Shown piece after piece: positions 20,107 to 38,970 of a stretch of 64,000 bases of DNA (within the stretch, counting starts at the first letter, position 1; every line of letters starts with the position of its first letter). The position numbers and the translations under genes are program-made. The stretch lies in NCBI RefSeq assembly GCF_004364935.1, contig NZ_SOBT01000011.1, positions 62,001 through 126,000 on the forward strand. The letters are read 5' to 3'. This DNA is from Panacagrimonas perspica. Its GTDB lineage: Bacteria; Pseudomonadota; Gammaproteobacteria; Nevskiales; Nevskiaceae. The notes beneath the pieces were generated by a model that saw only the letters and a program-made list of their open reading frames with translations, was not told the DNA's origin and searched no databases.

Positions 20107-20634
20107 TCACCCCTTTAGTCTGCGTCGTGCTCTTTGAGATCGACGCAGGACGCGGCCGTCTCCGGCCGCCCTTGAGGCACTCACCGGTTCCTTGTCGCGA
20201 GTACCGGAGACGGCTGTGCCAGACGCACCAGCGGCTCTCCGCGCTCGGCCGGCCGCGCTCGCTCCGCCGGAGGGAAGCCAGGGAGCGGATGCCCTCGAAC
20301 GCCGATGCAATTCCTGCTCTCTGTGCGCATTGATGATCGCGGTCACCAAGGGGTCGAACCGCTCTTTAACGACGTCTTCGCGCAGAACGTTGTGCATCTC
20401 CTTACCGACGCGCGTGCTGTGGATCAGGCCAGCTTCGCGAAGGATGCCGAAGTGCTTCGACAGCGTTGATTTCGGAACCCGACGGTCGCTGACCTCCAGG
20501 AAGCTTTTGCAAGTGTGTGCACACTTGGAAACCGCGATCTCCGCAAAGATCTGCGCGCGAACGGGGTCTGCCAGGGCGTAAAGGATTCCTTCGGGGGTAA
20601 GGTCGTCGAGTGCGGGATGAACGAGAGGACGCAT
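20107..20634 (-). CDS. ArsR/SmtB-family transcriptional regulator
   Basis: Winged-helix repressor. The core from about residue 15 to 110 has LYALADPVRAQIFAEI, then KCAHTC (Cys38 and Cys42), then the recognition region VPKSTLSKHFGILREAGLI and a wing HSTRVGKEMHNVLRED. After NAHREQELHRR about 60 residues of Arg/Ala/Ser-rich sequence follow. This is unlike the family, which normally ends there, so loss of the original stop is likely. ATG 20634 is chosen because MRPLVHPALDDLTPEG is a normal family N terminus; ATG 20667 is the alternative. It diverges from the PfpI/HHDH genes, with a palindromic operator between them. The two Cys could sense metal or oxidant (inference). Confidence 0.82.
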   Translation of the reverse strand: MRPLVHPALDDLTPEGILYALADPVRAQIFAEIAVSKCAHTCKSFLEVSDRRVPKSTLSKHFGILREAGLIHSTRVGKEMHNVLREDVVKERFDPLVTAIINAHREQELHRRSRASAPWLPSGGASAAGRARRAAGASGTAVSGTRDKEPVSASRAAGDGRVLRRSQRARRRLKG

Positions 20635-20676
20635 GCTTCGATGAAAGGAGGGTGACGCTGTGAACATATCACCCGG

Positions 20677-20716
20677 TTGACATTCAGTGCCTCAGTTCCT
20701 ATGTTCGGAACTGAGG
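20677..20716 (+). promoter_or_regulatory. Sigma-70 type promoter with palindromic operator for the PfpI-HHDH operon
   Basis: TTGACA at 20677-20682 is followed after exactly 17 bases by TATGTT at 20700-20705, a strong -35/-10 pair reading toward the PfpI gene. The -10 sits in the seven-base loop of a perfect ten-base inverted repeat, CCTCAGTTCC (20690-20699) and GGAACTGAGG (20707-20716). Binding there would block polymerase. The adjacent divergent ArsR regulator is the obvious candidate binder. Confidence 0.8.
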
Positions 20717-20800: not shown

Positions 20801-21478
20801 ATGAAAAAGGTGCTGATGGTCGTCACGTCGCACGATCGACTCGGCGACACGGGTCGTCCCACGGGCTTCTGGCTGGAGGAGTTCGCCTCTCCCTATTACG
20901 TCTTTCGAGATGCGCGCTTCGAGGTTGTTGTCGCCTCTCCTAAGGGCGGACGGCCGCCGTTGGATCCTAAGAGCGCCGAAGCCGGCTTCCAGACGGATGC
21001 AACCCGCCGATTCGAGGCCGATACCGAGGCGGGGCAGGTCCTGGCGTCGTCTCAGTTGCTGTCCGCGCAGGATCCTGCCGGGTTCGACGCTGTGTTCTAC
21101 CCCGGCGGCCATGGCCCGCTCTGGGATTTGGTATCCAATCCCGATTCTCTGCGCCTGATCCGCACGATGCATGCAGCCGGGAAGATCGTGGCTGCGGTTT
21201 GTCACGGCCCGGCCGCCCTGTTGAACGTGTCCATCGACGGTATTCCGATAGTCCGGGGCCGCAAGGTGACCGGATTCACCAATACCGAAGAGGAAGCCGT
21301 GGGCCTCACTCAGGTGGTGCCGCTGCTCGTGGAAGACGAGATGCGCCGCCTCGGCGGCCTGTATGCAAAGGGTGACGACTGGGCTCCGTTCGTCGTCGTC
21401 GACGGCAATCTCGTTACCGGCCAGAACCCGGCATCGTCGGGGCCCGCCGCCCGCGCCGTGGTCGAAAAGCTCAGCTGA
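20801..21478 (+). CDS. DJ-1/PfpI (class I glutamine amidotransferase-like) protein, Hsp31 type
   Basis: 225-residue protein of the DJ-1/PfpI superfamily. The nucleophile elbow is VAAVCHGPAALLN, with Cys following the strand. The acidic partner region is near TGFWLEEFASPYY, and PGGHGPLWDL is the oxyanion loop. These features match Hsp31-like glyoxalase III/deglycase proteins that handle methylglyoxal. ATG 20801 has AAAGGAGA upstream. The frame continues upstream to 20687, but that part runs through the promoter and operator. It is followed 59 bp later by the HHDH-like gene, probably in one operon under the ArsR regulator. Confidence 0.9.
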   Translation: MKKVLMVVTSHDRLGDTGRPTGFWLEEFASPYYVFRDARFEVVVASPKGGRPPLDPKSAEAGFQTDATRRFEADTEAGQVLASSQLLSAQDPAGFDAVFYPGGHGPLWDLVSNPDSLRLIRTMHAAGKIVAAVCHGPAALLNVSIDGIPIVRGRKVTGFTNTEEEAVGLTQVVPLLVEDEMRRLGGLYAKGDDWAPFVVVDGNLVTGQNPASSGPAARAVVEKLS

Positions 21479-21537: not shown

Positions 21538-22296
21538 ATGTCAGCATCGAAGAATGCGATCGTCACAAACGTCCAGCAGCTAGCAGGTACCGCGGCGGCA
21601 CGCGCACTGACGCGGGACGGAATGAAGGTCCTGTGCCACGACCTGGCGTTCGTGGACGAGCCCGCTCGCAAGGCATTCGAGAAGGACACCGGGCTCGTCG
21701 CGACGAAGGAGCAGGATCCGGGAAGGCTCGTCTCAGAAGCTATCGAGCGATTCGGTCACGTCGACGTCCTGTTCTCCAATGACGTCCATCCTGCGGGTTT
21801 CCTTCCGATCGAGCAGATCACGCTCGATGCCTTCCGGGCGACGCTCGAAGCGCTGCTCGTGATGCCCTTCGCGTTGATCCGCGCCGTCGCGCCGCACATG
21901 AAAGAGCGGCGTACCGGCCATATCATCTTGCTCTCCTCTGCGACGCCGTTAGCGCCATATCCGTTCTCCTCTGGCTACTGCGCGGCGCGGGCGGGCGCTT
22001 CGAACCTGCCGAAGTCGCTCTCGCTCGAGCTGGCGGAGCACAACGTCCAGATCAACGCCATTCTTTCGCAGTTCCTCCATAGCGAGCTTTACTATCCGCG
22101 CGCACTCTTCGAGGAGAACGCCGAGGTCAAGGCATATCTCCACGCGCATGTACCTGCCAAGCGGCTCGGCGAGCAAGAAGAGCAGGCCGAGCTCGTCGCA
22201 TTTCTCGCGTCAGACAAATGTAACTTCATCAACGGCCAGACCATCCCATTCACGGGTGCTTGGCCAGGCATGCCGAAATGGCCGGTGCAGTTGTAG
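21538..22296 (+). CDS. Halohydrin dehalogenase-like SDR protein
   Basis: 252-residue protein of the short-chain dehydrogenase fold that carries the halohydrin dehalogenase hallmarks. The catalytic triad spacing Ser-x12-Tyr-x3-Arg is met by Ser134, Tyr147 and Arg151. The NAD-binding glycine motif of true SDRs is absent and replaced by TNVQQLAG (T10-x4-L15-x-G17), close to the T-x4-F/Y-x-G halide-pocket motif. Many segments parallel HheC as I recall it: SNDVHPAGFLPIEQ, SSATP, LHSELYYP, RLGEQEEQAELVAFLAS and the C-terminal GMPKWP. Such enzymes turn vicinal halohydrins into epoxides and run the reverse with azide, cyanide or nitrite. A strong AAGGAGGAG site precedes ATG 21538. Confidence 0.85.
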   Translation: MSASKNAIVTNVQQLAGTAAARALTRDGMKVLCHDLAFVDEPARKAFEKDTGLVATKEQDPGRLVSEAIERFGHVDVLFSNDVHPAGFLPIEQITLDAFRATLEALLVMPFALIRAVAPHMKERRTGHIILLSSATPLAPYPFSSGYCAARAGASNLPKSLSLELAEHNVQINAILSQFLHSELYYPRALFEENAEVKAYLHAHVPAKRLGEQEEQAELVAFLASDKCNFINGQTIPFTGAWPGMPKWPVQL

Positions 22297-22538: not shown

Positions 22539-22943
22539 TCAGGCGATGAGTCGGTAGCAAACCCAGAAAATCATGCCTACCTGAGCGAGGAAGAAGGTCG
22601 CACGTAGCAGTACGAACGCGGGGGCGGTGCTGATGAGGTGCGACACGCCCTGACCCACACGCGCGGCCAGGATGAAGCCCGCGACGCCATCCACAACGGG
22701 GCTCTTGCTCATAAGTGCGGCGATCACCACGACGGCAGCGAAGAGCGGAAAGTTTTCCACGCAGTTGAGGTGCGCGCCCTTGGCGCGGACCATCAAGGGT
22801 GGGTCGCGATTGACCTCGGCGCGCTCCCAGTCCGCGAACTTGCGACCGCCGAACAGCGCCATCGGCACGCGCGGGAACGCGTAGGACAGCGTCAGCAATT
22901 GCATCCATGCCACGTACAGCAGCACGGCAATGAACCCCGTCAT
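22539..22943 (-). CDS. MAPEG-family membrane protein
   Basis: 134-residue protein with four hydrophobic helices. The pattern (VEVNRDPP-like NRDPPLMVRAKGAHLNCVEN, then FPLFAAVVVIAAL, ARVGQGVSHLISTAP) is that of MAPEG proteins, membrane proteins related to microsomal glutathione transferases. The ENFP segment after the first loop is the typical family signature. It stands alone on the minus strand, separated by about 240 bp from the HHDH-like gene with which it converges. Activity with glutathione is not certain, since many bacterial members are uncharacterised. Confidence 0.85.
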   Translation of the reverse strand: MTGFIAVLLYVAWMQLLTLSYAFPRVPMALFGGRKFADWERAEVNRDPPLMVRAKGAHLNCVENFPLFAAVVVIAALMSKSPVVDGVAGFILAARVGQGVSHLISTAPAFVLLRATFFLAQVGMIFWVCYRLIA

Positions 22944-25938: not shown

Positions 25939-26072
25939 TCTAGTACCGCTGATGCAAGGCGGATTGGACCGCGCCACAGTGCAATGAAGACGCACCGTGT
26001 CCGCTGTAAAACGATCTCAGACCCGTCCGCACCGCCCTGGCGCGCGAGATGGGCAACCGCGAGGACCCCATC

Positions 26073-27725
26073 ATGAAACCCAAGAATCAATCAGCTGGCC
26101 AAGCCGAGTGGATCGATGTCCTGATCATCGGGGCCGGTTTCGGCGGCCTTCGGATGCTGCAGGAGTGCAGGGAACTCGGACTGGAGGCCATCATCCTCGA
26201 CGCTGCAACCGATCTCGGCGGCACCTGGTACTGGAATCGTTATCCAGGCGCTCGCACCGACACCGAGAGCTGGGCGTACTGCTTCTACTTTTCCGAGAAG
26301 CTCAACGAGCAGTACAGCTTCAAGGAACGCTATGCGACCTGGGACAGCTCGCTCGACTACCTCAACTACGCCGCCGACGCGTTGGACATGCGCCGCCACA
26401 TGCGCTTCGAGCGCCGCGTGACCACGGCCCGATACATCAACTCGGAGAACGTTTGGGAAGTGCAGACGGACACGGGTGAGACGTATCGGTGCCGTTACCT
26501 GGTCAGTGCCAGTGGCGTGCTGTCGGTCGCGTACAAGCCGCCCTTCAAGAACTCCGAGGCTTTCAACGGCAAGGTCTACCTGACGGCGAACTGGCCCAAG
26601 GAGCATGTCGATTTCGCGGGCAAGCGCGTGGCGGTCATCGGCACCGGCGCGAGCGGCGTGCAGGTGATTCCGATCATTGCGCACGAAGCGGCCCACGTAA
26701 CGGTTTTCCAGCGCACGCCGAACTACGTGCTGCCGGCACGCAATGCGCCGGTGACGGACGCGCAGCAGCGCGCGATTCGCCGCGATTTCCACCAGATGGT
26801 CGCGCAGTGCCGCAAGCAGGTCTTCGCGTTCCCGATGACCGATTCGAAAGTCGCTCTGAAGAGCGTCTCGCCCGAGGAGCAGCAGCGCGTGCTCGAGCGG
26901 GGCTGGGAGATCGGCGGGTTCCAGTTTGCTTTCGAGACGTTCAACGACATCCTGACCGATCGCGAGTCGAACGCCGTCGTGGCGGAATTTGTGCGTAAGA
27001 AGATCCGGGCGATCGTCAAGGATCCAAAGACGGCGGAAATGCTCTGCCCAGACTACGCGCTGTTCGCCAAGCGTCCGCCTCTCGGTCACTTCTACTTCGA
27101 GACCTTCAATCGGCCGAACGTGAATCTGGTGGATGTGAGTGACGACCCGATCGAAGCCATGACGGCTACGGGCCTGAAGACTCGCACTCGTGAGTTCGGA
27201 GACTTCGACGCCGTGGTGTACGCAACCGGGTTCGACGGCGGGACGGGAGCCCTGGTGAAAATCGACGTTCGCGGCACCAACAACCAGTCGATCGCGGAGA
27301 CGTGGCGCAAGTCCCTGCAGACCCAGTTCGGCATCTGCATGAACGGGTTCCCCAACTTCTTCATGATTTCTGGCCCGCAGGCACCATTCGCCAACACGCC
27401 GATGATCGTGGACCGGGCGGTGACCTGGATCGGCGATTGCATCCGTCATGTCCAGGCCTCGGGCGACACAGTGGTGGAGGCGCGCGCGGAAGCTTGCGAG
27501 AACTGGACGAAATTCGTGCAGACCACGATGGACATGACCGTGCTGGCCGATGGCGCAGGCGTGAACTCCTGGTTCCTGGGCAAGAACATTCCTGGAAAGC
27601 TGCAAGCACCACTGTTCTTCTTCGGCGGTGCGAACAACTACTTCATCGAGCTCGAAAAGGAGTCCGGTGGAGGCTTCAAGGGAATGCAGTTCCGGCGCCC
27701 CACGATCGACGCGGCCGCCGCGTAG
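26073..27725 (+). CDS. Flavin-containing monooxygenase of the Baeyer-Villiger type
   Basis: 550-residue FAD/NADPH enzyme close in length and layout to phenylacetone/cyclohexanone monooxygenases. The FAD motif is GAGFGG (G20-G25). The second BVMO signature GGTWYWNRYPGARTD is intact and the NADPH motif is GTGASG. The main fingerprint F-x-G-x3-H-x3-W-P is present as FNGKVYLTANWP (F164 to P175), but Leu170 replaces the histidine. KRPPLGHFYFETFNRPNV is the usual C-terminal block. GAGGA lies eight bases before ATG 26073. It should insert oxygen next to a carbonyl to give an ester or lactone, or act as an atypical monooxygenase because of the substitution. Confidence 0.88.
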   Translation: MKPKNQSAGQAEWIDVLIIGAGFGGLRMLQECRELGLEAIILDAATDLGGTWYWNRYPGARTDTESWAYCFYFSEKLNEQYSFKERYATWDSSLDYLNYAADALDMRRHMRFERRVTTARYINSENVWEVQTDTGETYRCRYLVSASGVLSVAYKPPFKNSEAFNGKVYLTANWPKEHVDFAGKRVAVIGTGASGVQVIPIIAHEAAHVTVFQRTPNYVLPARNAPVTDAQQRAIRRDFHQMVAQCRKQVFAFPMTDSKVALKSVSPEEQQRVLERGWEIGGFQFAFETFNDILTDRESNAVVAEFVRKKIRAIVKDPKTAEMLCPDYALFAKRPPLGHFYFETFNRPNVNLVDVSDDPIEAMTATGLKTRTREFGDFDAVVYATGFDGGTGALVKIDVRGTNNQSIAETWRKSLQTQFGICMNGFPNFFMISGPQAPFANTPMIVDRAVTWIGDCIRHVQASGDTVVEARAEACENWTKFVQTTMDMTVLADGAGVNSWFLGKNIPGKLQAPLFFFGGANNYFIELEKESGGGFKGMQFRRPTIDAAAA

Positions 27726-27933
27726 CGGGAAGTAGTAAGTAGCGTGCCTGGTGCGGCGCGCTACCCGTGAGACGAGGCGCTGTGCACGAAGGGGGTACGA
27801 GTTCATGAGTGGTCCGGCAATGAGGCTCACCATCCGGTGCGCGGAGTGATCCGTTGTCGCATCGACAATGCGTCGCCATAATCGCGGCACGCTCGCGCAG
27901 GGAAGCGAGCGCGACCACAGCGAGATCCTGCTG

Positions 27934-28716
27934 ATGCCTGTCGGGGAGGCCGGGGTTTCCGCTCCAGATCAATCGCGCTCGAGCGTCCCTGCGACTCCTG
28001 TCGTGAAGCATGCACCCATCGTGACCAAGGTCAGTGCCAATCTGCTGCGCCGCAAAGAGATCGGCCAGGAGCGCCGCGAGCGTACGCGGGCCAAGCTGTT
28101 AGCAGCAGCGGCCCAGGTGCTGGCCGAATACGGCGAGCAGAAGGCGACGATCGATGACTTCATCCAGGCCGCCGGTGTCGCGCGGGGTACGTTCTACAAC
28201 TACTACCAGACGCGCGGACAGATCCTCGATGACCTCTGGGCCGAGATCGGCCGCGATCCGTTCGTCGGCATCCAGAAGGCCTGTGCCTCGATCAAGGATC
28301 CCGCCGAACGACTGGTCACCAAGACCCGATTGATCCTGAAAACGGCCCAAGACAACACCACCTGGGGCTGGGTGGTTTTCGCGCTGTCGCTGGACATCAC
28401 GACGGTCAATGCGGATCTTCTGGCGTTCCCGCGACCGGACCTCGAGGAAGGCCTGCGGAAAGGTCGTTTCAAGTTCGACGAGATCCATGCCGCAAAGGAC
28501 CTGGTGGTGGGCGCATGCAGAACAGCGCTCCACGCCTTGCTGATCGAGGAGCGTTCTGAAGGATATCCGCCGGCAATTGCTGCCCTGATGCTGCGTTCCC
28601 TCGGGGTGTCTGCAACCGAAGCACAGTCCTTGGTGAAGCGGCCGCTGCCCACAATGCGCTCGCACCTTTCGCCTGCCGCGAACGGCGCGCGGCTCGGCAA
28701 CCTGAGTCCTGCGTAG
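27934..28716 (+). CDS. TetR-family transcriptional regulator
   Basis: About 260 residues. The N-terminal helix-turn-helix is clear: RTRAKLLAAAAQVLAEYGEQ, then ATIDDFIQAAGVARGTFYNY and YQTRGQILDDLW. The rest is a helical ligand domain with WGWVVFALSLDITTVNADLL. Start choice is uncertain: ATG 27934 is used, but the frame is open to ATG 27868 and neither has a strong ribosome site. It lies between the monooxygenase gene and the LDI-like gene and is the likely controller of the cluster promoters at 25901, 28901 and 37305. Confidence 0.88.
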   Translation: MPVGEAGVSAPDQSRSSVPATPVVKHAPIVTKVSANLLRRKEIGQERRERTRAKLLAAAAQVLAEYGEQKATIDDFIQAAGVARGTFYNYYQTRGQILDDLWAEIGRDPFVGIQKACASIKDPAERLVTKTRLILKTAQDNTTWGWVVFALSLDITTVNADLLAFPRPDLEEGLRKGRFKFDEIHAAKDLVVGACRTALHALLIEERSEGYPPAIAALMLRSLGVSATEAQSLVKRPLPTMRSHLSPAANGARLGNLSPA

Positions 28717-28900
28717 AGCGCAGGCATTCGCGGCGAACTCCAGCGTTCGCGCGAATCTCCGTCAGGACTGCTCGAGTGAACTCTCTCAACGCGCACGTTG
28801 CCCACCGCGCCCGCACGGCCGTAATTCCGCTCGACCTCGCGGACCGTGTCGGTTCAGACCGTAGCAACGCACCAATGACGAGGAACGTGCGGGTGGTTCC

Positions 28901-28931
28901 GAATTGACAGTTTTCGCTCAATTCCGATAGG
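28901..28931 (+). promoter_or_regulatory. Promoter/operator of the LDI-like operon
   Basis: TTGACA at 28904-28909 and GATAGG at 28926-28931 with 16 bases between. GAATTGA (28901-28907) and TCAATTC (28918-28924) form a perfect seven-base inverted repeat across the -35 and spacer. The spacing fits a TetR-dimer site. Confidence 0.6.
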
Positions 28932-29069
28932 GTCACGTCACTCCCGGCGGACCGTGGTCCGAACGCTGGTGGACGAGAACGACGCGACTGATCGTGTCGT
29001 TGCGATACCTGCGCACCAGAGGAGTGGGACAGCCCTCGGCTGATCTTCCATGCGAGCGAGAGAGAAGCC

Positions 29070-30647
29070 ATGAATCTTCCCCTGACCCCCCCTTCCGGCA
29101 GTGCACGCCATCGCACTCCGGCTTCGAAGCTCGACGCCAAGCAGGTCGGCAGCATCCGCCAGATCGAGAACATCGCCGGCCAGCTCGACGGCGAGTGGAC
29201 GATGATGGGAGGGCGCTGCGGACTGCAGGAGGATTTCGGTGCGTTCCGCTACCAGATGGCGTATGCCGGCTTGGCGCTGGCGCTGACCCATTTCCACCGG
29301 CTGCCCAATGCGCCGGGCGTGTTCAAGCCGATCTTCGAGAACCTGATCCGGAAGATGATGCATCCGGGCGTCTGGATGTACTGGCACTTCGTCAGCCAGG
29401 GCGGCGCGCTGACCAACGGACATCTCTGGGGGAAGTTGAAGGGCAAGTGGGACCCGGTCAAGGAAGACAACATCATGTTCAGCGCGTACCTGACGCTGCT
29501 GCCCATGCTCTACAACTACCTATTCGATGATGATCGCTACGCTCAGCCGGGTGCGCTGAAGATGTCGATCAACCCGCTCACCTTCGGTGACCGGATGGTG
29601 TTCGAGTATGACCAGCACAAGCTGAGCGACATCATTTACTGGCAGATGGTGCAGAACGGGTACCTGGGCGTGGCCTGCGAGCCAAGCTGCGTGTTCCAGA
29701 TCTGCAACCAGCCCAGCATCCTGTCGTTCCGGATCGAGGACTTCATCAAGGGCACTTCTCGCGCGCAGGAAGTCACCGAGGGATACGTCAAGGCTTGGAA
29801 GGAATTTGGGTCGGTCGACGCGGGTGGCCACTTCATGGTCCACGTGGTCACCGACATCAAGATGCCCATCCCCAACGCGTTGCCGTGGTTGTGGTCGGAC
29901 GCGTGGCTGGCGGCATTGATGCACTCCTGGAATCCCGAGTTCGTGCACGAGCATTACCCGGCGATGCTGCAGAAGTTCCTGATCCCGGGTCCGGACGACA
30001 CCTGCGCGGTGCGGCTGTGGGAACCGTTCGAGATCCGCGGGGTCACGACCGGCGCCGATACTGCCGACTTCGGTTGGGCCGCGGTGGCGGCGGCGGAATT
30101 GGGCGACGACAAGACACTGCGCGGCCTGCTCGCTCATGCCGATCGCTTCATGAATCCAACGTGGCGCGACGGCGGTCTGCATTATCCGCGCAACGACGTG
30201 CGCTACGACGAGAATGGCATCGTCCGGCTGGTGGAGCCGATCACGTCGAACACGTTGCTGCCGTTCGCAAGACTCAACGTGCCCAACGGCCTGAACACCT
30301 TCTACAACCAGCCGTGGACGCGGGCCCACTACGCCGAGCCGCTGCTCACCGAGATCTCGAACAACGTCGACGTCGTCGAGGCGCGGTTCGATCCGTCCGC
30401 ATCGGAACTGCGCTTCACGCTGAACGCACGGCAGGACCGGTCGGGTGACGCCGCCATCTCGATCTCGAACGTGTTCGAGAAGGGGCGCGGATCCTGGAAG
30501 CTGTACCGGGACGGCGTCGAGACTGCGAGCGGCGACGATGAGCGGGTCAGCCGCGCCGCGGACTTGAAGATCGAGCGACACGCGGATGTGATGGAACTCG
30601 TGGCTGCGCGCGAAGCAGCGTCCGCCTACAGCCTAGTCTGGGCCTGA
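29070..30647 (+). CDS. Linalool dehydratase-isomerase (LDI) family protein
   Basis: 525-residue protein whose N-terminal 400 residues match the LDI fold, an (alpha/alpha)6 barrel. The best landmark is CEPSCVFQICN: Cys203 and Cys212 are nine apart, as are the active-site pair of Castellaniella LDI (CEPDNYFVQCN as I recall). Asp40 sits nine residues before GRC's Cys, as the LDI catalytic Asp does. KEDNIMFSAYLTLL aligns with KENIMYKGHLNLM, but with Tyr140 where LDI has His. LDI isomerises geraniol and linalool and dehydrates linalool to myrcene. Differences are the absence of a signal peptide (LDI is periplasmic) and an extra C-terminal beta-rich domain of about 110 residues. The substrate is probably a terpenoid-like alcohol or alkene. 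Confidence 0.75.
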   Translation: MNLPLTPPSGSARHRTPASKLDAKQVGSIRQIENIAGQLDGEWTMMGGRCGLQEDFGAFRYQMAYAGLALALTHFHRLPNAPGVFKPIFENLIRKMMHPGVWMYWHFVSQGGALTNGHLWGKLKGKWDPVKEDNIMFSAYLTLLPMLYNYLFDDDRYAQPGALKMSINPLTFGDRMVFEYDQHKLSDIIYWQMVQNGYLGVACEPSCVFQICNQPSILSFRIEDFIKGTSRAQEVTEGYVKAWKEFGSVDAGGHFMVHVVTDIKMPIPNALPWLWSDAWLAALMHSWNPEFVHEHYPAMLQKFLIPGPDDTCAVRLWEPFEIRGVTTGADTADFGWAAVAAAELGDDKTLRGLLAHADRFMNPTWRDGGLHYPRNDVRYDENGIVRLVEPITSNTLLPFARLNVPNGLNTFYNQPWTRAHYAEPLLTEISNNVDVVEARFDPSASELRFTLNARQDRSGDAAISISNVFEKGRGSWKLYRDGVETASGDDERVSRAADLKIERHADVMELVAAREAASAYSLVWA

Positions 30648-30669
30648 TTCAGTGCGAGAAGAAGGGGCG

Positions 30670-31188
30670 ATGAACGCGCGGCGACCCCGCGAGTTAGAGG
30701 CTGTACTCGCCAATCATCAAGTGATGGGCGTCTACGGGATGCTGGTAGGGTTGATGGCCACTGCGCAGCCTGCGCTGCTCGCCTTGTGTGCAACGCGTCC
30801 GACACCTGGCAGCCTCCTTTCGCTGGCCTACATTCACCTGCGCGAGCACCTGGCAATGTTCGTCGGGATGGCCATCGCAAACTTGGTGAGCATCGCTGTG
30901 GCGTCGCGCGTCCATCGCGGGGAGCAAGGCTGGCGATATGAGACTTGGCGCGGCGCGAGATGCTTCGCGCTCATGGCGGTCGGCATGGTGGCCGGCTCGA
31001 TGTTGATGGGCGGGTCGGGAATCGCAGTATTTGACGCGCCGGGGATCCCACAGGTTTCGCTGGCCATGCTCGCAGGCATCGGTATCGGCGCCCTGGCCGA
31101 GCGCCTCTGCGAACAGGGATCGCAGCGGACGGCGGCAAGGGCTCGGCAGAGGTTCGCGCGATCCGCCTTCGGAGCGCTCGCGCGATGA
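30670..31188 (+). CDS. Hypothetical four-helix membrane protein
   Basis: 172-residue inner-membrane protein that I do not recognise. Four hydrophobic segments are visible: VYGMLVGLMATAQPALLAL, HLAMFVGMAIANLVSIAVAS, FALMAVGMVAGSMLMGG and VSLAMLAGIGIGALAE. The tail is Arg-rich. ATG 30670 follows GAAGGGGCG; a GTG at 30652 is in frame. It overlaps the SCO-like gene as ATGA. Translation coupling suggests it supplies membrane context for that protein. Confidence 0.7.
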   Translation: MNARRPRELEAVLANHQVMGVYGMLVGLMATAQPALLALCATRPTPGSLLSLAYIHLREHLAMFVGMAIANLVSIAVASRVHRGEQGWRYETWRGARCFALMAVGMVAGSMLMGGSGIAVFDAPGIPQVSLAMLAGIGIGALAERLCEQGSQRTAARARQRFARSAFGALAR

Positions 31189-31694
31189 CCTTCGTCACCG
31201 CGAAGTTCGACCTGGTCGACCACGACGGCCGACCAGTGACCGAGGCGTCTTATCGGGGGCGGTGGTTGCTGGTGTATTTCGGATTCACGCACTGTCGCGT
31301 GGTCTGCCCGCGGTCGCTGACCCGGCTATCGAACGTTCTCGGCGCACTCGCGCCCGACCTCGCGCACGTCATCCAGCCGCTCTACGTCACCGTCGACCCC
31401 AAGCGCGACACGCCCGAGGTGATGCGCGACTACCTGACGGCGCGATATCCGCTTTTCGTTGGCCTGACGGGCACCGAGGATCAGGTGGCTGCGGCGAAGG
31501 ACGCGTTCAAGGTGTTCTCGCGACCCAAGCCGGATCCCGAAAATCCAGCCAACTACGATGTGCCCCACACCGCCATCACGTACTTGATCGATCCGGCAGG
31601 GGCTTACGCGACGCATTGGCCCGAGACCAGCAGCGCAGGCGACGTCGTCTCGGATCTGCAGGCTCGACTCATGATCACGGCCTCGCAGTCCTGA
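31185..31694 (+). CDS. SCO1/SenC-family protein
   Basis: 169-residue thioredoxin-fold protein. The copper-binding and redox motif C-x3-C is Cys37-RVV-Cys41 in FTHCRVVCP, and the third ligand is the His of YDVPHTAITYLID. TVDPKRDTPEVMRDYL is a strong SCO signature. SCO proteins deliver copper to cytochrome oxidase or act as thiol reductases outside the cytosol. Here the protein starts at the fold itself, with no signal peptide or anchor, which is unusual. It overlaps the membrane protein gene by four bases. In a catabolic cluster it could serve the electron-transfer chain of the PQQ dehydrogenase, but that is inference. Confidence 0.85.
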   Translation: MTFVTAKFDLVDHDGRPVTEASYRGRWLLVYFGFTHCRVVCPRSLTRLSNVLGALAPDLAHVIQPLYVTVDPKRDTPEVMRDYLTARYPLFVGLTGTEDQVAAAKDAFKVFSRPKPDPENPANYDVPHTAITYLIDPAGAYATHWPETSSAGDVVSDLQARLMITASQS

Positions 31695-31755
31695 ATCACC
31701 CGCTATGAAGTGCGCGCCCGTTCCCGCGCGTCCACATCCAGATGAGGAAAGAACG

Positions 31756-33177
31756 ATGAAAGAAATGCCCTACGCAATGACCATCGGCGGAAAGCGGGTC
31801 TTCACCGACGCTTCCGACGCGGCGATCAACCCGGCCACGGAGAAACCGATCTGCAATTTCCCGTTGGCGACAAGAGCACATCTCGACGAGGCCGTCGAAG
31901 CGGCGCGTGTCGCGTTTCCGCAGTGGCGGGACCGTCCGCTCGCCGAGCGCCAGGCGCTCGTGACCCGTCTCGGGGACTTGGTCGAAGAGAACAAGGAAGC
32001 CTTCATCCGGCTCCTCATCACCGAGCAGGGCAAGGGCCGGGCGGGCGCTGAATGGGAGATCGGCGGCTCGATCTATTGGCTGCGCGAAGTCGCCAAGCAG
32101 TCGCTGCCGGCGGAAGTCGTCGTGGACAAGGGCGACGAGCAGATCGTGACGCGGCACACGCCGATCGGCGTCGTGGCGGGGATCACGCCCTGGAACTTCC
32201 CCTTGCTGCTGGCGGTGTGGAAGATTGCCCCGGCGCTGGTCGCGGGCAACACGATGGTATTGAAGCCGTCGCCGTTCACGCCGCTGTGCACGCTGTGGTT
32301 CGGCGAGCTGGCGCAGAGCGTGCTGCCGCCGGGCGTTCTCAACATCCTCTCGGGCGGAAACGAGCTGGGACAGTGGATGACCGAGCATCCTCACATCGGC
32401 AAGGTCGCGTTCACCGGCTCCACGGCCACCGGGCGCAAGGTGATGGCCAGCGCCGCGGCAAACCTCAAGCGTCTGACCTTGGAGCTCGGTGGAAACGATC
32501 CGGCCATCGTGCTGCCCGATGTCGATCCCAAGAAAATCGCAAAGGATCTGTTCTGGGCGTCGTTCTCGAACAGCGCGCAGTTCTGCGTCGCGTGCAAGCG
32601 CCTGTACATCCATGAGGACATCTACGACGCGGTAGCCAAGGAACTGGTCGAGTACGCCAAAACCGTGAAGGTCGGCAACGGCCTCACCGAGGGCGTCGAG
32701 CTCGGCCCGATCCAGAACCGCATGCAGTTCGAAAAGGTCAGCAACCTGCTGAAGGACTGCAAGGATCGCGGGCAGCGGTTCCTGCTCGGTGGGGATATCG
32801 CGGATGCGCCGGGTTACTTCATCCCGGTATCGCTGGTGGACAACCCGCCGGAGGACTCGCGGGTGGTGGTCGAAGAGGCGTTTGGACCCGTTCTGCCGCT
32901 GCTGAAATTCAAGGACATCGACGACGTCGTGAAGCGCGCCAACAACACGCCCTATGGCCTGGCGGCATCGGTCTGGAGCAAGGACGTTCAGAAGGCCGAG
33001 GCCATCGCGTCGCGACTGGAAACGGGCACCGTCTGGATCAACCAAGTGCACGTCTTCTCGCCTGACATCGCATTCGGCGGGCATAAGCAGTCCGGCGTCG
33101 GCATCGAGAACTCACTCCACGGGCTCGCCGAGTACTGCAACACGCAGACCTTGATGCGAAAGCCGCTGGCGGCCTGA
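31756..33177 (+). CDS. NAD(P)-dependent aldehyde dehydrogenase (GeoB-like)
   Basis: 473-residue aldehyde dehydrogenase that oxidises an aldehyde to a carboxylate. The nucleophile is Cys277 in NSAQFCVACKRLYI, the general-base Glu lies in LELGGND, and the cofactor region is ITPWNFPLLLAVWKIAPAL. GSTATGRKVM is the Rossmann turn. ATG 31756 has GAGGAAAG upstream. The next gene is an alcohol dehydrogenase, so the pair would take an alcohol to an acid, as geranial and geraniol dehydrogenases do in the Castellaniella myrcene cluster. The exact substrate is not shown by sequence. Confidence 0.93.
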   Translation: MKEMPYAMTIGGKRVFTDASDAAINPATEKPICNFPLATRAHLDEAVEAARVAFPQWRDRPLAERQALVTRLGDLVEENKEAFIRLLITEQGKGRAGAEWEIGGSIYWLREVAKQSLPAEVVVDKGDEQIVTRHTPIGVVAGITPWNFPLLLAVWKIAPALVAGNTMVLKPSPFTPLCTLWFGELAQSVLPPGVLNILSGGNELGQWMTEHPHIGKVAFTGSTATGRKVMASAAANLKRLTLELGGNDPAIVLPDVDPKKIAKDLFWASFSNSAQFCVACKRLYIHEDIYDAVAKELVEYAKTVKVGNGLTEGVELGPIQNRMQFEKVSNLLKDCKDRGQRFLLGGDIADAPGYFIPVSLVDNPPEDSRVVVEEAFGPVLPLLKFKDIDDVVKRANNTPYGLAASVWSKDVQKAEAIASRLETGTVWINQVHVFSPDIAFGGHKQSGVGIENSLHGLAEYCNTQTLMRKPLAA

Positions 33178-33253
33178 TCTTCCGCTGCATTGCTTCCGGG
33201 CGGCCGATGGCGCGCCTGGTGGGAACCCTTTTGCGCGCTTTCGGAGAAAACTG

Positions 33254-34357
33254 GTGCTGAACATCAAGGCGGCAGTCGTCCGTGATAAGTCGGCGGCCTT
33301 CCAGATCGAGAACCTGCGGCTCGAGTCGGCCCGTGGAGACGAGGTGCTGGTCAAGATCCACGGCGTTGGGGTGTGCCATACCGACCTGGTGGTACGCGAT
33401 CAGCACCTGCCCACGCCCCTGCCGGCGGTGCTCGGCCACGAAGGATCGGGGGTGGTGGTGGCGGTCGGCGACAAGGTGAAGAAGGTTGCGCCGGGCGACC
33501 ACGTGGTTCTCAGCTATGCCAGCTGCGGCACCTGTGCCAACTGCCTGAAAGGGCTGAACGGCTACTGCCCGGACCTCTACGGGCGCAACTTCTCCGGTTC
33601 ACGGCCCGATGGTTCGTCGCCCTGTTGCGATGCGCATGGTAATCGCGTCAGCGCGTATTTCTTCGCGCAGTCCTCTTTTGCCGACCACGCCATCGCGTCC
33701 GAGCGCAACACGGTCAAGATCCGCAAGGACGTGCCGCTGGAATTGATGGGTCCGCTGGGTTGTGGAATTCAGACCGGCGCGGGCGCCGTGATGAATGCGC
33801 TGAAACCATCGGCGGGGAGCAGCATCGCCGTATTCGGCGCGGGCTCGGTTGGATTGTCGGCCGTCATGGCGGCGCGAGTGGTGGGCTGCACCACCATCAT
33901 CGCTGTCGACCTCAACGCGGAGCGACTCGCGCTGGCCAGTGAGCTCGGTGCTACTCACGTCGTCAACGCGGCGTCCGAGAATGTGCACGAGCGGATCACC
34001 GCACTCACTGGCGGCGAGGGCGTGCAGTTCTCGCTCGAATGCACCGGCGTGCCCAAGGTCGTGCGCCAGGCGGTCGACGTGCTTCGCCTGACCGGCGTAT
34101 GCGGCGTCATCGGGGTGGCGCCGCTGGGCACCGAGATCACACTGGACATGAACGCGATCCTGTTCGGACGCTCGGTCCGCGGAATCATCGAGGGCGACAG
34201 CATTCCCGACGTGTTCATTCCGCAGCTGGTCGATCTCTGGCAGCAGGGGCGATTTCCGTTCGACAAGCTGGTGCGTTTCTTCCCGCTGGCGCAGATCAAC
34301 GAGGCCGTGCACGCCTCGGAGAGCGGCCAAGTGCTCAAAGCCATCCTGCGACCCTGA
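33254..34357 (+). CDS. Zinc-dependent alcohol dehydrogenase (aryl/geraniol alcohol dehydrogenase type)
   Basis: 367-residue medium-chain dehydrogenase. Catalytic zinc residues are in VGVCHTDLVVRD, LGHEGSGVV and LGCGIQTGAG. The structural zinc motif is CGTCANCLKGLNGYC. The NAD motif is FGAGSVGLSAV, with an Asp at the end of the next strand (IIAVDLN) indicating NAD preference. The subgroup is that of benzyl, coniferyl and geraniol dehydrogenases. It starts with GTG 33254 (GGAGAAAA upstream). Together with the upstream aldehyde dehydrogenase it makes a two-step alcohol-to-acid unit. Confidence 0.92.
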   Translation: MLNIKAAVVRDKSAAFQIENLRLESARGDEVLVKIHGVGVCHTDLVVRDQHLPTPLPAVLGHEGSGVVVAVGDKVKKVAPGDHVVLSYASCGTCANCLKGLNGYCPDLYGRNFSGSRPDGSSPCCDAHGNRVSAYFFAQSSFADHAIASERNTVKIRKDVPLELMGPLGCGIQTGAGAVMNALKPSAGSSIAVFGAGSVGLSAVMAARVVGCTTIIAVDLNAERLALASELGATHVVNAASENVHERITALTGGEGVQFSLECTGVPKVVRQAVDVLRLTGVCGVIGVAPLGTEITLDMNAILFGRSVRGIIEGDSIPDVFIPQLVDLWQQGRFPFDKLVRFFPLAQINEAVHASESGQVLKAILRP

Positions 34358-34442
34358 CCGCCCTGGCGCTAATCCTTCGCTGCGATCGGCTCTCGCCGAC
34401 GCTGTGCCAGATGGCGTCACTTGACTTCGAGGAGCCTGCAGC

Positions 34443-35438
34443 ATGATCACTGCGAGAGACATCGACTATCACCACTGTAACGAGGTCGATCACGAGTGGG
34501 CCGAGACGAACTTCTTCGGGTTCTACATCCCGGAGGAACGCCTGCTCGGCAGCATCTACACGGTGGCGCGCGCGGGCACCGGTGCTTGCGCCTCCGAGTT
34601 CATCGTCTATCGCGGGCTATCGCAAGATCGAATGAACGTCGTGCACTACGACGTTCAAGAGCACCTGCCGCTGCCGAAGAGTCTGGCGGACTACCGGCTG
34701 CCAAACGGGATGCAGGTGCGCGCGGTGAACGCGCCGCGGGACTATCGCATTGAGTACACGGGCCGCGAGGGGACGGAACTCAAGCTCGACTACACCGGCT
34801 TAATGGAACCCTTTGACATCCACGATGCAAGCCAGAACGCGCGCGCCGCCAAGACCGATTCCGCGCGCGCTGCCGGCTCGAGCTTCGGCGAAGCCTACAA
34901 GGGTCACTTTGACCAGACCTCGCACGCGACCGGATCGCTGAAGCTCGGCGGCCGTACGTTCGCGATCGACTGCATCGACACGATGGACCACAGCTGGGGC
35001 CCGCGTCCCGAATACGGGATGAAATCCCAATGCTGGTTGCACGGACACTTCGGCCCTGACCTGGTGGTGCACCTGATTCTTTCGTTCAAGCCCTGGGCCG
35101 CGCGCGAGCAGCAGTACGAACTTGCACACGGATACGTGCTGCGCGACGGAGCCGTGCATGCCGTCACGCGGGCGACTGTCGTGGCCGACCGGGTGAATTT
35201 GCAGGGCATCGCCATGTCGGTGGACGTCACCGACTGCACCGGGCGTTCGGTCTCGATGCGGGGAGGCGCAATCGCTGGCGGCGCCTGGCCGGCCTACCTG
35301 ACGCTGCACACCCACAACACCCTGCACCAGTGGACGACCGACTCCGGCCAGCTTGGCTACGGCGTGGTGCAGGAGAACTGGCCGATGGACAAGATCGCGG
35401 CGCGAAACCTCGCAGCGATGCTCGGCACGCCGGCGTGA
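34443..35438 (+). CDS. AttH/CrtC-like (DUF7064-type) beta protein
   Basis: 331-residue protein of the lipocalin-like AttH/CrtC group. It opens HEWAETNFFGFYIPEERLLG and has the group's central motif DTMDHSWGPRPEYG, followed by many short beta strands. Some members hydrate C=C bonds of carotenoids (CrtC) or modify terpenoid chains; most are unknown. The stop overlaps the kinase gene as GTGA, so the two are made together. No signal peptide is seen. The assignment rests on the DHSWG motif and overall pattern, and function is open. A hydratase acting on a terpenoid fits the LDI-like gene nearby. Confidence 0.55.
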   Translation: MITARDIDYHHCNEVDHEWAETNFFGFYIPEERLLGSIYTVARAGTGACASEFIVYRGLSQDRMNVVHYDVQEHLPLPKSLADYRLPNGMQVRAVNAPRDYRIEYTGREGTELKLDYTGLMEPFDIHDASQNARAAKTDSARAAGSSFGEAYKGHFDQTSHATGSLKLGGRTFAIDCIDTMDHSWGPRPEYGMKSQCWLHGHFGPDLVVHLILSFKPWAAREQQYELAHGYVLRDGAVHAVTRATVVADRVNLQGIAMSVDVTDCTGRSVSMRGGAIAGGAWPAYLTLHTHNTLHQWTTDSGQLGYGVVQENWPMDKIAARNLAAMLGTPA

Positions 35439-36550
35439 GCAGCGCAAGCCGTGTGACGCTGCGCAGTGACCCCGCGGGCGGGCACCCGCTGGTCGATCGG
35501 GAAGCTGACTTGACGCCGACATGGCTGACAGCAGTGCTGCGGGGGATCGGCGCCTTGCCCAAAGGCGAAGTGACCGCGGTACGCAGCGAGCCGGTCGGCC
35601 ATGGGCTGGTAGCCACCACGCGACGGCTGCACCTGTCCTATGACACGCAAACTCTGGCCCCGTCGACGCTCGTGGCAAAGATGACGTCGGTCGACGAGGC
35701 CAGCCGCAAGGCCGGGGCGGCCCTGGGCGTATACGAAAAAGAGGTCCGCTTCTACCAGGACATCGCACCACGCATCGGCGCAGCCGTAGCTCCGGCGCTG
35801 TTCGCCGACGTGGATCACTTGGGCGAGCGCTTCCTGCTACTGATGGACGACCTGTTCCCGGCCCGATCGGGCGAGCAAATCGCCGGCTGTAACCTGGAGG
35901 ATGCAGCGGCTGTGCTGGATGCCGCCGCCGCCATCCACGCCCCTTTCTGGGGCCGAACACAGATCGACGAGTTGCCGTGGATCGATCGTGCGCGCGACGT
36001 CGCCCTCTACGTGCAGGGCTACCGCGCCGCCATCGACCCGGTGCTGCAGCGCTTTGAACATTCACTACGTCCCGAGGTTCCGAATGTGATCTGCCGGCTT
36101 GGCGAGGGCCTTGACCGGTATTACGCCGCACAACCGCGTCCGTGGACCGTCACCCATCAGGACTTCCGCCTCGACAACCTGCTGTTCGATGCCAAGAACG
36201 GTGCAATGCCCGTCGCCGTGCTCGATTGGCAGACCGTGCGCATCGGCCCCGGCGTGAGCGATGTGGCTTATTTCATCGGCGCAGGACTTCCGCTGGAAAC
36301 ACGTCGGACCCACGAGCGCGATCTGCTCGAGCGCTATCGGGAGAGTCTTCGGGCCCTGGGTGTCGACAGCCTTCCCTCGGCCGAGGTGTGGCAGCAATAC
36401 AGGCGCTTCGCGGCCGAAGGCTTGATCACCGCCTTGTTGGGCGCGTCGATGGTCACGCCCACCGAACGAGGAGATCGTCTCTTCACAACGATGATCGAGC
36501 GCCATGCCCAGCACATGATCGACCTGGATACCCTTTCGCTGATGGGTTGA
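35435..36550 (+). CDS. Phosphotransferase of the APH/ecdysteroid-kinase-like family
   Basis: 371-residue kinase-fold protein. The catalytic loop is VTHQDFRLDNLLF (H-x-D-x3-D-N) and the metal motif is VAVLDWQTVRIGPGVSDVAY. A Lys for ATP lies in STLVAKMT. The family phosphorylates small molecules such as aminoglycosides, choline or, in insects, steroid hydroxyls. GTG 35435 is chosen because it overlaps the preceding stop; the frame is open to 35330 inside the previous gene. Pairing with the AttH/CrtC-like gene suggests phosphorylation of a hydroxyl on the cluster's substrate, which I have not seen described. A resistance role is unlikely in this context. Confidence 0.82.
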   Translation: MSSASRVTLRSDPAGGHPLVDREADLTPTWLTAVLRGIGALPKGEVTAVRSEPVGHGLVATTRRLHLSYDTQTLAPSTLVAKMTSVDEASRKAGAALGVYEKEVRFYQDIAPRIGAAVAPALFADVDHLGERFLLLMDDLFPARSGEQIAGCNLEDAAAVLDAAAAIHAPFWGRTQIDELPWIDRARDVALYVQGYRAAIDPVLQRFEHSLRPEVPNVICRLGEGLDRYYAAQPRPWTVTHQDFRLDNLLFDAKNGAMPVAVLDWQTVRIGPGVSDVAYFIGAGLPLETRRTHERDLLERYRESLRALGVDSLPSAEVWQQYRRFAAEGLITALLGASMVTPTERGDRLFTTMIERHAQHMIDLDTLSLMG

Positions 36551-36569
36551 TCGGCCCCGCTGGCGCCGA

Positions 36570-37244
36570 TCAAACCGGTTTTATCCCCGTCAGCGATGCG
36601 CGCGCGGAAATCTCGATCCAATTGCCGTCGGGGTCTTTCACGAGCCCATAGCGGGCAACGTCCCTGAAACTCACGGCCTGGCGGGCGACGCGGCCGCCTC
36701 GCGCTGCGATCTCGCGCAGGGCCTGGTCCGCATCGAAGATCTGCACGGTGAGGTATCGATACCCCGGTCCGATGAAATCCTCCGTGTCGCTGCCACCCGG
36801 ACCCCGCTCGACGAAAATGAGGGTGTCGCCAGCGCGCACGGTTCGCTCGTCGACGCGATCGAATTCCAACACGTCGCAATAGAAGGCCGTCAGTCGGTCG
36901 GGGTCGGGCGAGCGTACCGTGATGCCGATCCGCACCAGCCCATGGGTTCCCCGCGCGACCGTCCTTACGGCATTGCCGTCGGCGTCTCGCGCACTCAGCG
37001 GTGGGCCGTCAGTGACGATGCTCAATCCCACGTATCCCGACGGTGGAAGCACAGGCAGTCGCTCGCTGCGGTGATTGACCTTGATCACCGAGCCCCAAGC
37101 ATCGAAGCGATGCTGGACCCACCCGGGGCCCATCTCCAACTCGTGGTCGAGTCGCAGACCGACCGTGTCGGTCCAGAAAGCGCGCTGCTCCTGAATGCCA
37201 TTGGTGAACAGGCCGAGGTCTAGATGCGGTTTCGCCAGTCTCAT
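36570..37244 (-). CDS. VOC-family (glyoxalase/dioxygenase-like) protein
   Basis: 224-residue protein with two vicinal-oxygen-chelate modules. The first has HLDLGLFTNGIQEQRAFWTD and the second VRIGITVRSPDPDRLTAFYC, then YRYLTVQIFDADQALREIAA and VKDPDGNWIEI. VOC members include glyoxalase I, extradiol dioxygenases and epimerases such as methylmalonyl-CoA epimerase. ATG 37244 is preferred to the TTG at 37268. It is the only minus-strand gene in the cluster, converging on the kinase gene and diverging from the ligase gene. Confidence 0.85.
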   Translation of the reverse strand: MRLAKPHLDLGLFTNGIQEQRAFWTDTVGLRLDHELEMGPGWVQHRFDAWGSVIKVNHRSERLPVLPPSGYVGLSIVTDGPPLSARDADGNAVRTVARGTHGLVRIGITVRSPDPDRLTAFYCDVLEFDRVDERTVRAGDTLIFVERGPGGSDTEDFIGPGYRYLTVQIFDADQALREIAARGGRVARQAVSFRDVARYGLVKDPDGNWIEISARASLTGIKPV

Positions 37245-37304
37245 GTCAGCTGCCGCTGCGCCCTCCAACAGGGCGGGACCGTCACGATCTCAGAAATACA
37301 TCAT

Positions 37305-37339
37305 CAATCCAAGTTGACACGAAACGTACAACTGCATAC
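37305..37339 (+). promoter_or_regulatory. Promoter/operator of the acyl-CoA ligase operon
   Basis: CAATCCAAGTTGACA (37305-37319) is identical to the sequence before the monooxygenase gene; TTGACA is 37314-37319. AAACG and ACA further on also match. AGTTG (37312-37316) and CAACT (37329-37333) form an inverted repeat. A CATACC-type -10 lies near 37335. It is the divergent region for the VOC gene as well. Confidence 0.6.
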
Positions 37340-37443
37340 CGTGACGCATATGACGGGATGAGTGCCCCGAATACTCGGGAGCACTCGGATTACGCGCTCG
37401 AACCGATGAGAGACGCGCATTCACGAACGAGGAGAAACGTCGG

Positions 37444-38970
37444 ATGAACAGCTCTGTCGGCGAACTGATCCGCTCCGCCGCATCCGCTTATCGAAACAAG
37501 GTCGCGCTGGTATTCGAGGACGAGCGTTGGACGTTCGCCGAGCTGGACCGGGCATCGTCCCAGCTGGCGGGTCGGCTTGCTCATTTGGGCGTGGTCCAGG
37601 GCGAGGTGGTATCGCTCTACTCTCCCAACTGTCCGGAATGGATCATCGGCTACTACGCGGTGATGAAACTCGGGGCGGTGGTGAACCCGCTGAACCTCAT
37701 GCTGACGCCCGACGAAGCCGCCTTCGCGATGAGCGACTGCAGTGCGGTGGCGGTGATTGGGTCAGCCGATAAGCTCGACGCGCTGCTTCCTGTGCTGGCA
37801 AAAACGAAGCTGCGTCACCGCATTTCCTACCGCGGCAAGGCCCTGAACGGGACGCTCGATTTCGACGAGCTTCTCCAGGGCGACACGGTGCAGGCGGCCC
37901 ATGCACTGATCCAGGCGGACAGTGCCTCGACCATCGCCTACACATCGGGAACGACGGGGCATCCCAAGGGCGCCGTACTGACGCACCGCGGCATCATGTT
38001 GAACACCGCGATGACGGCGACCCTTCACCTGCGCACGTCGTCGGATGTGGTGGTCAGCGCTCTGCCGTGCTCACACGTGTACGGCAACATCGTGATGAAC
38101 GCTGCGATTGCGTACGGCATGACCTTGGTCCTGCACGCCAGCTTCGATGCCGGCCGGATCCTCGAGAGTATCCAAACCCATCGGGCCACGATCTTCGAAG
38201 GCGTCCCCACGATGTACATGTACCTGCTCGAGGCCCCGAAGCTTCAGACCGCGGACCTATCTTCCTTGCGCTGCTGCACGGTGGGCGGCCAGACGATGCC
38301 GGAAGCCAAGATGCGGCAGGTGATCGAGCGGTTCCGGTGCCCCCTCATCGAACTGTGGGGAATGACCGAACTGGGTGGACTGGGTACGACGCATTCGGCG
38401 TACGGTCCACAGGTCCTGGGCAGCATCGGCGTGGCGCTGCCGCACCTCGAAGCGCGGGTCAGCGACCCGGAGGCGCCGGACCAAGTGGTCGCGCTCGGCG
38501 AGGTCGGCGAGCTGCAGATCCGCGGCCCAATGGTCATGCGCGAGTACCTCAATCGACCGGACGCCACGGCGCAAACGCTAACGCCCGATGGCTGGCTGCG
38601 TACCGGTGACCTGGCGCGCATGGAGCGCGATGGCTATCTCTACGTCGTCGACCGCCTAAAGGACATGATCATCACCGCCGGCTTCAATATCTACCCGGCG
38701 GAACTCGAACGCGTCATCGCAGCCCATCCCGATGTTGCGCTGGTCGCGGTGGGGAGCATCGCGGACGACCACAAGGGCGAACTAGCGAAGGCGTACGTGG
38801 TCCGCCGTCAGGGCTCCACCGTCGACGCAGATACGCTCGAGAAGCATTGCCGCGAGCGACTGGCGTCCTACAAGGTCCCTCGGGCCTGGCAGTTCGTCAG
38901 CGACGTGCCCAAGACCAGCAGCGGAAAAATCATGCGGCGGATGCTGCACACGATCCCCGCACAGGTCTGA
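37444..38970 (+). CDS. Acyl-CoA ligase (AMP-forming)
   Basis: 508-residue member of the ANL superfamily that activates a carboxylic acid to its CoA thioester. The P loop is YTSGTTGHPKGAVLTH, motif A5 is GMTELGG, and the hinge region is GWLRTGDLARMERDGYLYVV and DRLKDMIITAGFNIYPAELE. The catalytic Lys lies in KTSSGKIMRRM. GGAGAAA precedes ATG 37444. The substrate could be a geranic-acid-like or ring-opened acid from the dehydrogenases upstream. It heads an operon with the SDR and PQQ dehydrogenase. Confidence 0.93.
   Translation: MNSSVGELIRSAASAYRNKVALVFEDERWTFAELDRASSQLAGRLAHLGVVQGEVVSLYSPNCPEWIIGYYAVMKLGAVVNPLNLMLTPDEAAFAMSDCSAVAVIGSADKLDALLPVLAKTKLRHRISYRGKALNGTLDFDELLQGDTVQAAHALIQADSASTIAYTSGTTGHPKGAVLTHRGIMLNTAMTATLHLRTSSDVVVSALPCSHVYGNIVMNAAIAYGMTLVLHASFDAGRILESIQTHRATIFEGVPTMYMYLLEAPKLQTADLSSLRCCTVGGQTMPEAKMRQVIERFRCPLIELWGMTELGGLGTTHSAYGPQVLGSIGVALPHLEARVSDPEAPDQVVALGEVGELQIRGPMVMREYLNRPDATAQTLTPDGWLRTGDLARMERDGYLYVVDRLKDMIITAGFNIYPAELERVIAAHPDVALVAVGSIADDHKGELAKAYVVRRQGSTVDADTLEKHCRERLASYKVPRAWQFVSDVPKTSSGKIMRRMLHTIPAQV

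Follow-up and report, generated by a model that had tools for sequence, protein, structure and literature searches.

HheC, the halohydrin dehalogenase (HHDH) of Agrobacterium radiobacter AD1 (1PWX), is used in industry to convert halogenated alcohols to epoxides. In the HHDH mechanism that a 2016 review presents as established, Tyr, Arg, and Ser handle the oxygen, and the anion takes the place that the nicotinamide holds in SDRs (PMC4989007). The same review describes a C-terminal extension as HheC's alone, with Trp249 entering the active site of the neighboring subunit, and reports that an adjacent epoxide hydrolase is missing from most HHDH genes (PMC4989007). For the aromatic residue of motif 1, an account of HheC mutagenesis (PMC11976700) places F12 in contact with the halide and describes saturation mutagenesis in which every variant except M and R was made; it names G, A, C, S, Q, H, and Y as active, and Leu, which was made, is unnamed among these. 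Since the corresponding Tyr of HheB is reported there to make no direct chloride contact, the aromatic appears from that account not to be essential to halide binding across the family (PMC11976700). Outside the HHDHs, the nemRA-gloA unit of Escherichia coli, as described in PMC5297802, combines a repressor with a detoxifying enzyme and a glyoxalase and responds to reactive electrophiles.

We analyzed a 64,000-nucleotide stretch of Panacagrimonas perspica DNA (the window) in which an ATG-initiated ORF of 252 residues (21538..22296, + strand) encodes an HHDH related to HheC, with AGGAGGAG just 5′ of its start codon. Upstream on the same strand is a DJ-1/PfpI gene of the Hsp31/glyoxalase III-like kind (20801..21478), which ends 59 bases before the HHDH gene, and beyond it a divergent gene for an ArsR-family regulator (20107..20667, − strand). 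At a probability of about 0.72, we take this locus to encode a cofactor-free HHDH of the HheC branch that would be co-expressed with a glyoxalase III-like DJ-1 protein under a promoter with repressor control, the two serving as an inducible electrophile detoxification pair. The window protein resembles HheC in its catalytic triad, its Trp-bearing C-terminal tail, and its position as sister to HheC in both of our trees, but it has Leu for Phe12, Leu for Gly174, Ser for Pro175, Gln for Asn176, and Tyr for Trp139, and it lacks the three-residue insertion 184-186 of HheC, as do the other rows of the same alignment. The gene context also differs: an epoxide hydrolase is reported for hheC (PMC11976700), whereas the window gene has a DJ-1 partner. 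A haloalcohol operon with an epoxide hydrolase was considered and rejected, as no such gene occurs among the Pfam-scanned neighbors and the host's two EHN-domain genes are on other contigs. The absence weighs against the preferred reading, though most HHDH genes have no such neighbor (PMC4989007).

The motifs of the protein are those of an HHDH at all but one position. Motif 2 (S134-x12-Y147-x3-R151; 21937..21990, + strand) follows the HHDH pattern S-x12-Y-x3-R in the alignment, and a motif scan of the protein found no T-G-x3-G-x-G, so that both marks of cofactor-dependent SDRs, this glycine motif and Y-x3-K (the latter present in 15/15 cofactor-type SDR homologues used as an outgroup), are missing. 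The earlier note had read both the triad and the absent NAD-binding glycine motif from the letters, and alignment and scan bear it out. Motif 1 (T10-NVQQ-L15-A-G17; 21565..21588, + strand) departs from the strict published form, T-x4-F/Y-x-G, at one position, keeping the Thr and Gly and having Leu (codon CTA, 21580-21582) for the central aromatic; because of this departure, "HheC-like HHDH homologue" is the fitting name for the present. Pfam assigns the protein to the generic SDRs, and the best 25 of 191 NCBIfam rows are SDR models, none of which reaches its cut-off, so automatic annotation would probably hide the HHDH.

Sequence searches, phylogeny, and structure agree on its placement. The first 10 rows of a PDB search are all HHDHs, with the HheC chains (179 to 189 bits) ahead of 6A41 (155 bits) and the HheA chains (123 to 128 bits) and the first non-HHDH SDR at 90 bits; HheC is the best match, at 41% identity over the whole length, and the HheB, HheD2, and HheG chains rank lower, amid ordinary SDRs (about 68 to 85 bits). 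For the trees, the reference sequences (HheA2, HheB, HheC, HheD2, HheG, 6A41, and 8XXB, with a single HheC and without HheE and HheF) were taken from the PDB alignments. A 28-row tree splits 13 HHDH rows from 15 cofactor-type SDRs with support of 100/97 and joins the window protein, HheC, and L009, the sole orthologue found, at 95/93. In a 42-row tree (36 HHDH and 6 SDR rows), to which we added 23 of 49 new sequences from the bacterial class of genome G548 (the G548 class), these values are 100/99 and 99/95. That class is probably Alphaproteobacteria, since L010, from a named alphaproteobacterial MAG, is 75 to 78% identical to the class's L091 to L093. Both trees group the window protein with HheA, HheB, HheC, HheD, and HheG, apart from the cofactor-binding SDRs, although HheG forms a very long branch whose position is unsure. 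The AlphaFold model (pLDDT, 91.7; pTM, 0.91) is weak in the C-terminal tail, where the last two blocks have pLDDT 65 and 50. In structure comparison by VIA the first 11 entries are HHDHs (Z, 34.6 to 32.2), followed by SDRs from Z 30.6 down, and the first 15 Foldseek rows are all HHDHs. These top matches are A type, C type, and 6A41 throughout, and HheB, HheD2, and HheG are absent from the best 50 entries of either list, so the structural ranking separates A/C-type HHDHs, not the whole family, from SDRs. The earlier note had proposed an HHDH rather than a cofactor-binding SDR and named phylogeny against the Hhe types as one check; trees with HheA, HheB, HheC, HheD, and HheG, the PDB ranking, and the structure all sustain that proposal, and the placement among cofactor-binding SDRs that would have spoken against it did not occur.

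The C-terminal extension (22264..22293, + strand) gives a second mark of the HheC branch. In the window protein it reads AWPGMPKWP, with Trp248 at the position of HheC Trp249, and model confidence in this extension is low. We tallied residues over 62 aligned HHDH rows, comprising 7 PDB chains, the window protein, and 54 sequences from other loci (29 new loci of 48 class matches and 20 of 64 family matches included), with 25 rows from one family. Trp occupies this position in 3/62 rows, namely those of the window, L009, and HheC, and the other 59 are without the tail. Because the tree method drops columns filled in fewer than 30% of rows, which would include those of the tail, the extension should count as evidence separate from the tree. 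By these sequence comparisons the protein is a member of the HheC branch, a deep second branch beside HheC. The earlier note's "divergent subtype" is thus right as to the halide-site motif but not as to an unplaced subtype.

The DJ-1 gene (PF01965, 62 bits) and the ArsR gene both pass their Pfam cut-offs, so the DJ-1-like neighbor and the regulator gene beside the pair are as the earlier note described them. The closest PDB chains of the DJ-1 protein are 1U9C (184 bits), 4P5P (165 bits), and 4LRU (104 bits), the last a glutathione-independent glyoxalase III (PDB). With its DJ-1/PfpI domain and a Cys nucleophile that precedes a His (Cys134-His135, present in the L009 homologue as well), the partner would belong with the Hsp31/glyoxalase III proteins. 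Between the divergent ArsR and DJ-1 genes lie a sigma-70-like promoter (TTGACA-17-TATGTT; 20677..20705, + strand), facing the DJ-1/HHDH pair, and a perfect 10-bp inverted repeat, CCTCAGTTCC-N7-GGAACTGAGG (20690..20716), whose spacer contains the −10 box. A search tolerating 3 mismatches or fewer finds a single copy of the repeat in the window and none in 100 shuffles; a 9-bp-arm version has one exact site in the 5.4-Mb genome and one other with 3 mismatches. A repeat over the −10 box resembles a repressor operator and probably is one, and the ArsR protein may be the repressor of the DJ-1/HHDH promoter. No sequence resembling a terminator turned up between 20600 and 22600.

Several neighboring features are worth recording. 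Toward its C terminus (20107-20322, − strand) the ArsR ORF is rich in Arg and Ala and does not look like a folded domain, which leaves its true end in doubt and may reflect a frameshift. Downstream, convergent with the HHDH gene, Pfam identifies a MAPEG-family gene (22539-22943, − strand); the MAPEG family includes glutathione-dependent detoxifiers. Farther on, the region 26049-38967 holds a linalool dehydratase/isomerase-family gene (29070-30644; PF18566, 345 bits) with a flavin monooxygenase (Baeyer-Villiger-like, by an NCBIfam match below cut-off), a zinc alcohol dehydrogenase, and DUF7064, EcKL/APH, and AMP-binding genes nearby, and could possibly be a monoterpenoid breakdown region.

The pairing with DJ-1 recurs in L009, a 3,248-bp contig of an alphaproteobacterial (Rhodospirillales) MAG that carries, in this order, a TetR gene, a DJ-1 gene, and an HHDH gene on one strand. 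The order, DJ-1 then HHDH, is that of the window, with identities of 70% for HHDH and 65% for DJ-1, and the regulators differ (divergent ArsR in the window, TetR in L009). Between the two loci, dN/dS (NG86) is about 0.18 for the HHDH gene (dN, 0.23; dS, 1.31, near saturation) and about 0.14 for the DJ-1 gene (dS, 1.9, near saturation), so that both look to be under purifying selection. A single orthologue was found, which limits the evidence for a conserved pair to two loci, with unlike regulators, and tells against the preferred reading. As a general rule, DJ-1 beside HHDH has to be rejected: of 55 HHDH loci (54 distinct, window excluded), most with flanks of about 1.5 kb in either direction, L009 is the single case. 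We found no literature joining halohydrin dehalogenase with PfpI. Around other DJ-1 homologues in the host and its order (six regions, L065 to L070, two truncated where the contig stops and five with neighbors judged by eye), one, L065 from the host's order, has an adjoining old yellow enzyme gene, which belongs to the family of NemA. Our locus would be built like nemRA-gloA (PMC5297802), but with an HHDH for the old yellow enzyme, a DJ-1-type protein for GloA, and ArsR for TetR, and the likeness serves as a working analogy only.

The halide pocket sets the window protein and L009 apart from every other HHDH in the tally. S134, Y147, and R151 are present in 62/62 rows. At the position of HheC F12, 55 rows have F or Y and seven do not (four W, one M, and the two Leu of the window and L009). 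The halide-site loop, L176-S-Q178-F-L180 (22063..22077, + strand), corresponds to G-P-N-Y-L at HheC 174-178; the G174 position has G, A, or C in 60/62 rows and Leu in the window (Leu176) and L009, and the N176 position has N in 58/62 rows and Gln in these same two alone (Gln178 in the window). P175S is a common change (Ser in 31/62 rows) and is therefore not special. The earlier note had reported T-x4-L-x-G in place of T-x4-F/Y-x-G and suggested a possibly divergent subtype; the alignment upholds the divergent motif, which is clade-specific among the 62 rows, and G174L and N176Q accompany F12L. Nor is the Leu a sequencing slip, because the independent orthologue reads T-HVCE-L-A-G. The three changes are best read, on alignment evidence, as a halide pocket rebuilt in concert, and with these residues altered (F12L, G174L, and N176Q, with P175S) the anion preference has probably shifted. 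Other departures from the published motif 1 were also seen: an HHDH subclade (L010 and L091 to L093) has T-x4-W-x-G, a HheD-like gene on an IMG/VR contig (L061) has Met at the aromatic position, and the motif 1 Thr is replaced by Ser in L113 and by Ile in L118.

From these features we infer HHDH activity, its chemistry and substrates, and an operon inducer, as follows. Tyr147, activated by Arg151, would act with Ser134 on a hydroxyl or epoxide oxygen, and a vicinal leaving group would be expelled into, or an anion would attack from, the pocket formed by motif 1 and the 176-180 loop. The enzyme would interconvert vicinal halohydrins and epoxides or open epoxides with another anion. The operon would remove reactive electrophiles, with the HHDH taking halohydrins or epoxides and the DJ-1 protein taking alpha-oxoaldehydes or adducts; this defensive role is suggested by the glyoxalase III-like partner and the local regulator, by analogy with nemRA-gloA. 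A chlorohydrin formed by reactive chlorine as the substrate stays a guess, given that we found no literature linking chlorohydrin, hypochlorous acid, and dehalogenase.

One alternative is that the protein has the HHDH fold and triad but a natural reaction other than dehalogenation: its pocket would suit some other anion or leaving group (carboxylate, nitrite, or cyanide, for instance), and its work would be the opening or closing of epoxides in detoxification or terpenoid breakdown. We consider this possible but on the unlikely side; it overlaps with the detoxification pair that we prefer, and the odds of the two are not exclusive. F12L, G174L, and N176Q occur together in this clade only among the 62 rows, F12L is not among the HheC variants that PMC11976700 names as active, and the linalool dehydratase/isomerase-family, flavin monooxygenase, and AMP-binding genes lie 4 to 17 kb downstream. 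However, those genes are separated from the operon, the L009 contig is too short to include the same region, and the HheB aromatic, as reported in PMC11976700, makes no direct chloride contact. That Leu is not among the variants named as active in PMC11976700 could also mean that a lone Leu harms halide chemistry in HheC. This would tell against the preferred reading and would suit a catalytically dead or regulatory HHDH relative, but with the full triad, the motif 1 Thr and Gly in place, a dN/dS of about 0.18 against the orthologue of a distant host, and pocket changes common to both orthologues, we regard such a protein as improbable. An ordinary NAD(P)-dependent SDR with a partly lost glycine motif, which the Pfam call and the subthreshold NCBIfam models would fit, is very improbable and was rejected, as tree, PDB ranking, and structure point to HheC and HheA and the motifs are Tyr-x3-Arg without T-G-x3-G-x-G. 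In a further reading, the HheC-type lineage, an F12L/G174L/N176Q pocket rebuilt for a non-halide anion, the glyoxalase III-like partner, and an inducible electrophile defense operon would together give the HHDH fold a natural, non-xenobiotic job; this we offer tentatively, as rather doubtful in its entirety.

At E 1e-30, the window HHDH matches 1/61 related genomes, the host itself, and at E 1e-45 profile A1 matches 1/85 genomes of the order, 1/369 of the class, and 2/398 of the phylum, host included each time, compared with 43/385 genomes of the G548 class and 64/75 of the G548 family; these searches score only the best first-look candidates (6 to 7 per genome in the largest) and may miss some matches. 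S-x12-Y-x3-R is present in 49/49 loci examined from the G548 class and family searches. Since matches are confined to the host in its order and class and are frequent in the G548 class, the gene most likely came to the host from another source, to judge by these profile searches. A 15-kb DNA search of the two other genomes of the genus had no match across the ArsR or HHDH gene; one of the two (G001) matches short stretches of the DJ-1 gene, two in number, where it has a DJ-1 homologue with 38% identity. The idea of a plasmid gene was dropped, since 72,556 plasmid records yielded no match at E 1e-25, and an IMG/VR scan gave four relatives of 30 to 37% identity.

HHDHs of other types occur in the host and in the G548 class. 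The host has a second, HheD-type gene (L002/L084; G000:C3:357505 onward) with T-x4-F-x-G and Y-x3-R, of which a 60-residue N-terminal piece matches 5/61 related genomes, including 3/3 of the genus. The 6A41-type and other HheA/C-type HHDHs of the G548 class share clade and triad with the window protein but are about 35 to 43% identical to it, have F, Y, or W in motif 1, lack the C-terminal tail in the rows examined, and in one family lie beside ubiE. This neighbor adjoins the HHDH gene in 22/25 loci of the G548 family (L046, L098, L100, L101, L113, and L120 to L139), where a housekeeping role seems possible. An occurrence outside the usual haloalkanol degraders, which the earlier note pointed out, is not remarkable, since profile matches are frequent in the G548 class and family and the host has the HheD-type gene; the novelty is the pocket and the operon, not presence outside known degraders.

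The clade of the window protein supplies a second, distant HheC-type scaffold in which nature has changed the nucleophile site in concert, a region that was mutated one residue at a time in the work described in PMC11976700. Mining by the strict F/Y motif misses part of this clade. The natural role of HHDHs is unsettled, and the 2016 review states that other physiological functions cannot be excluded (PMC4989007). A DJ-1 partner in two distant hosts, together with a probable regulatory switch, offers a handle on that role, and the inducer of the operon, once found, would point to the class of substrate.
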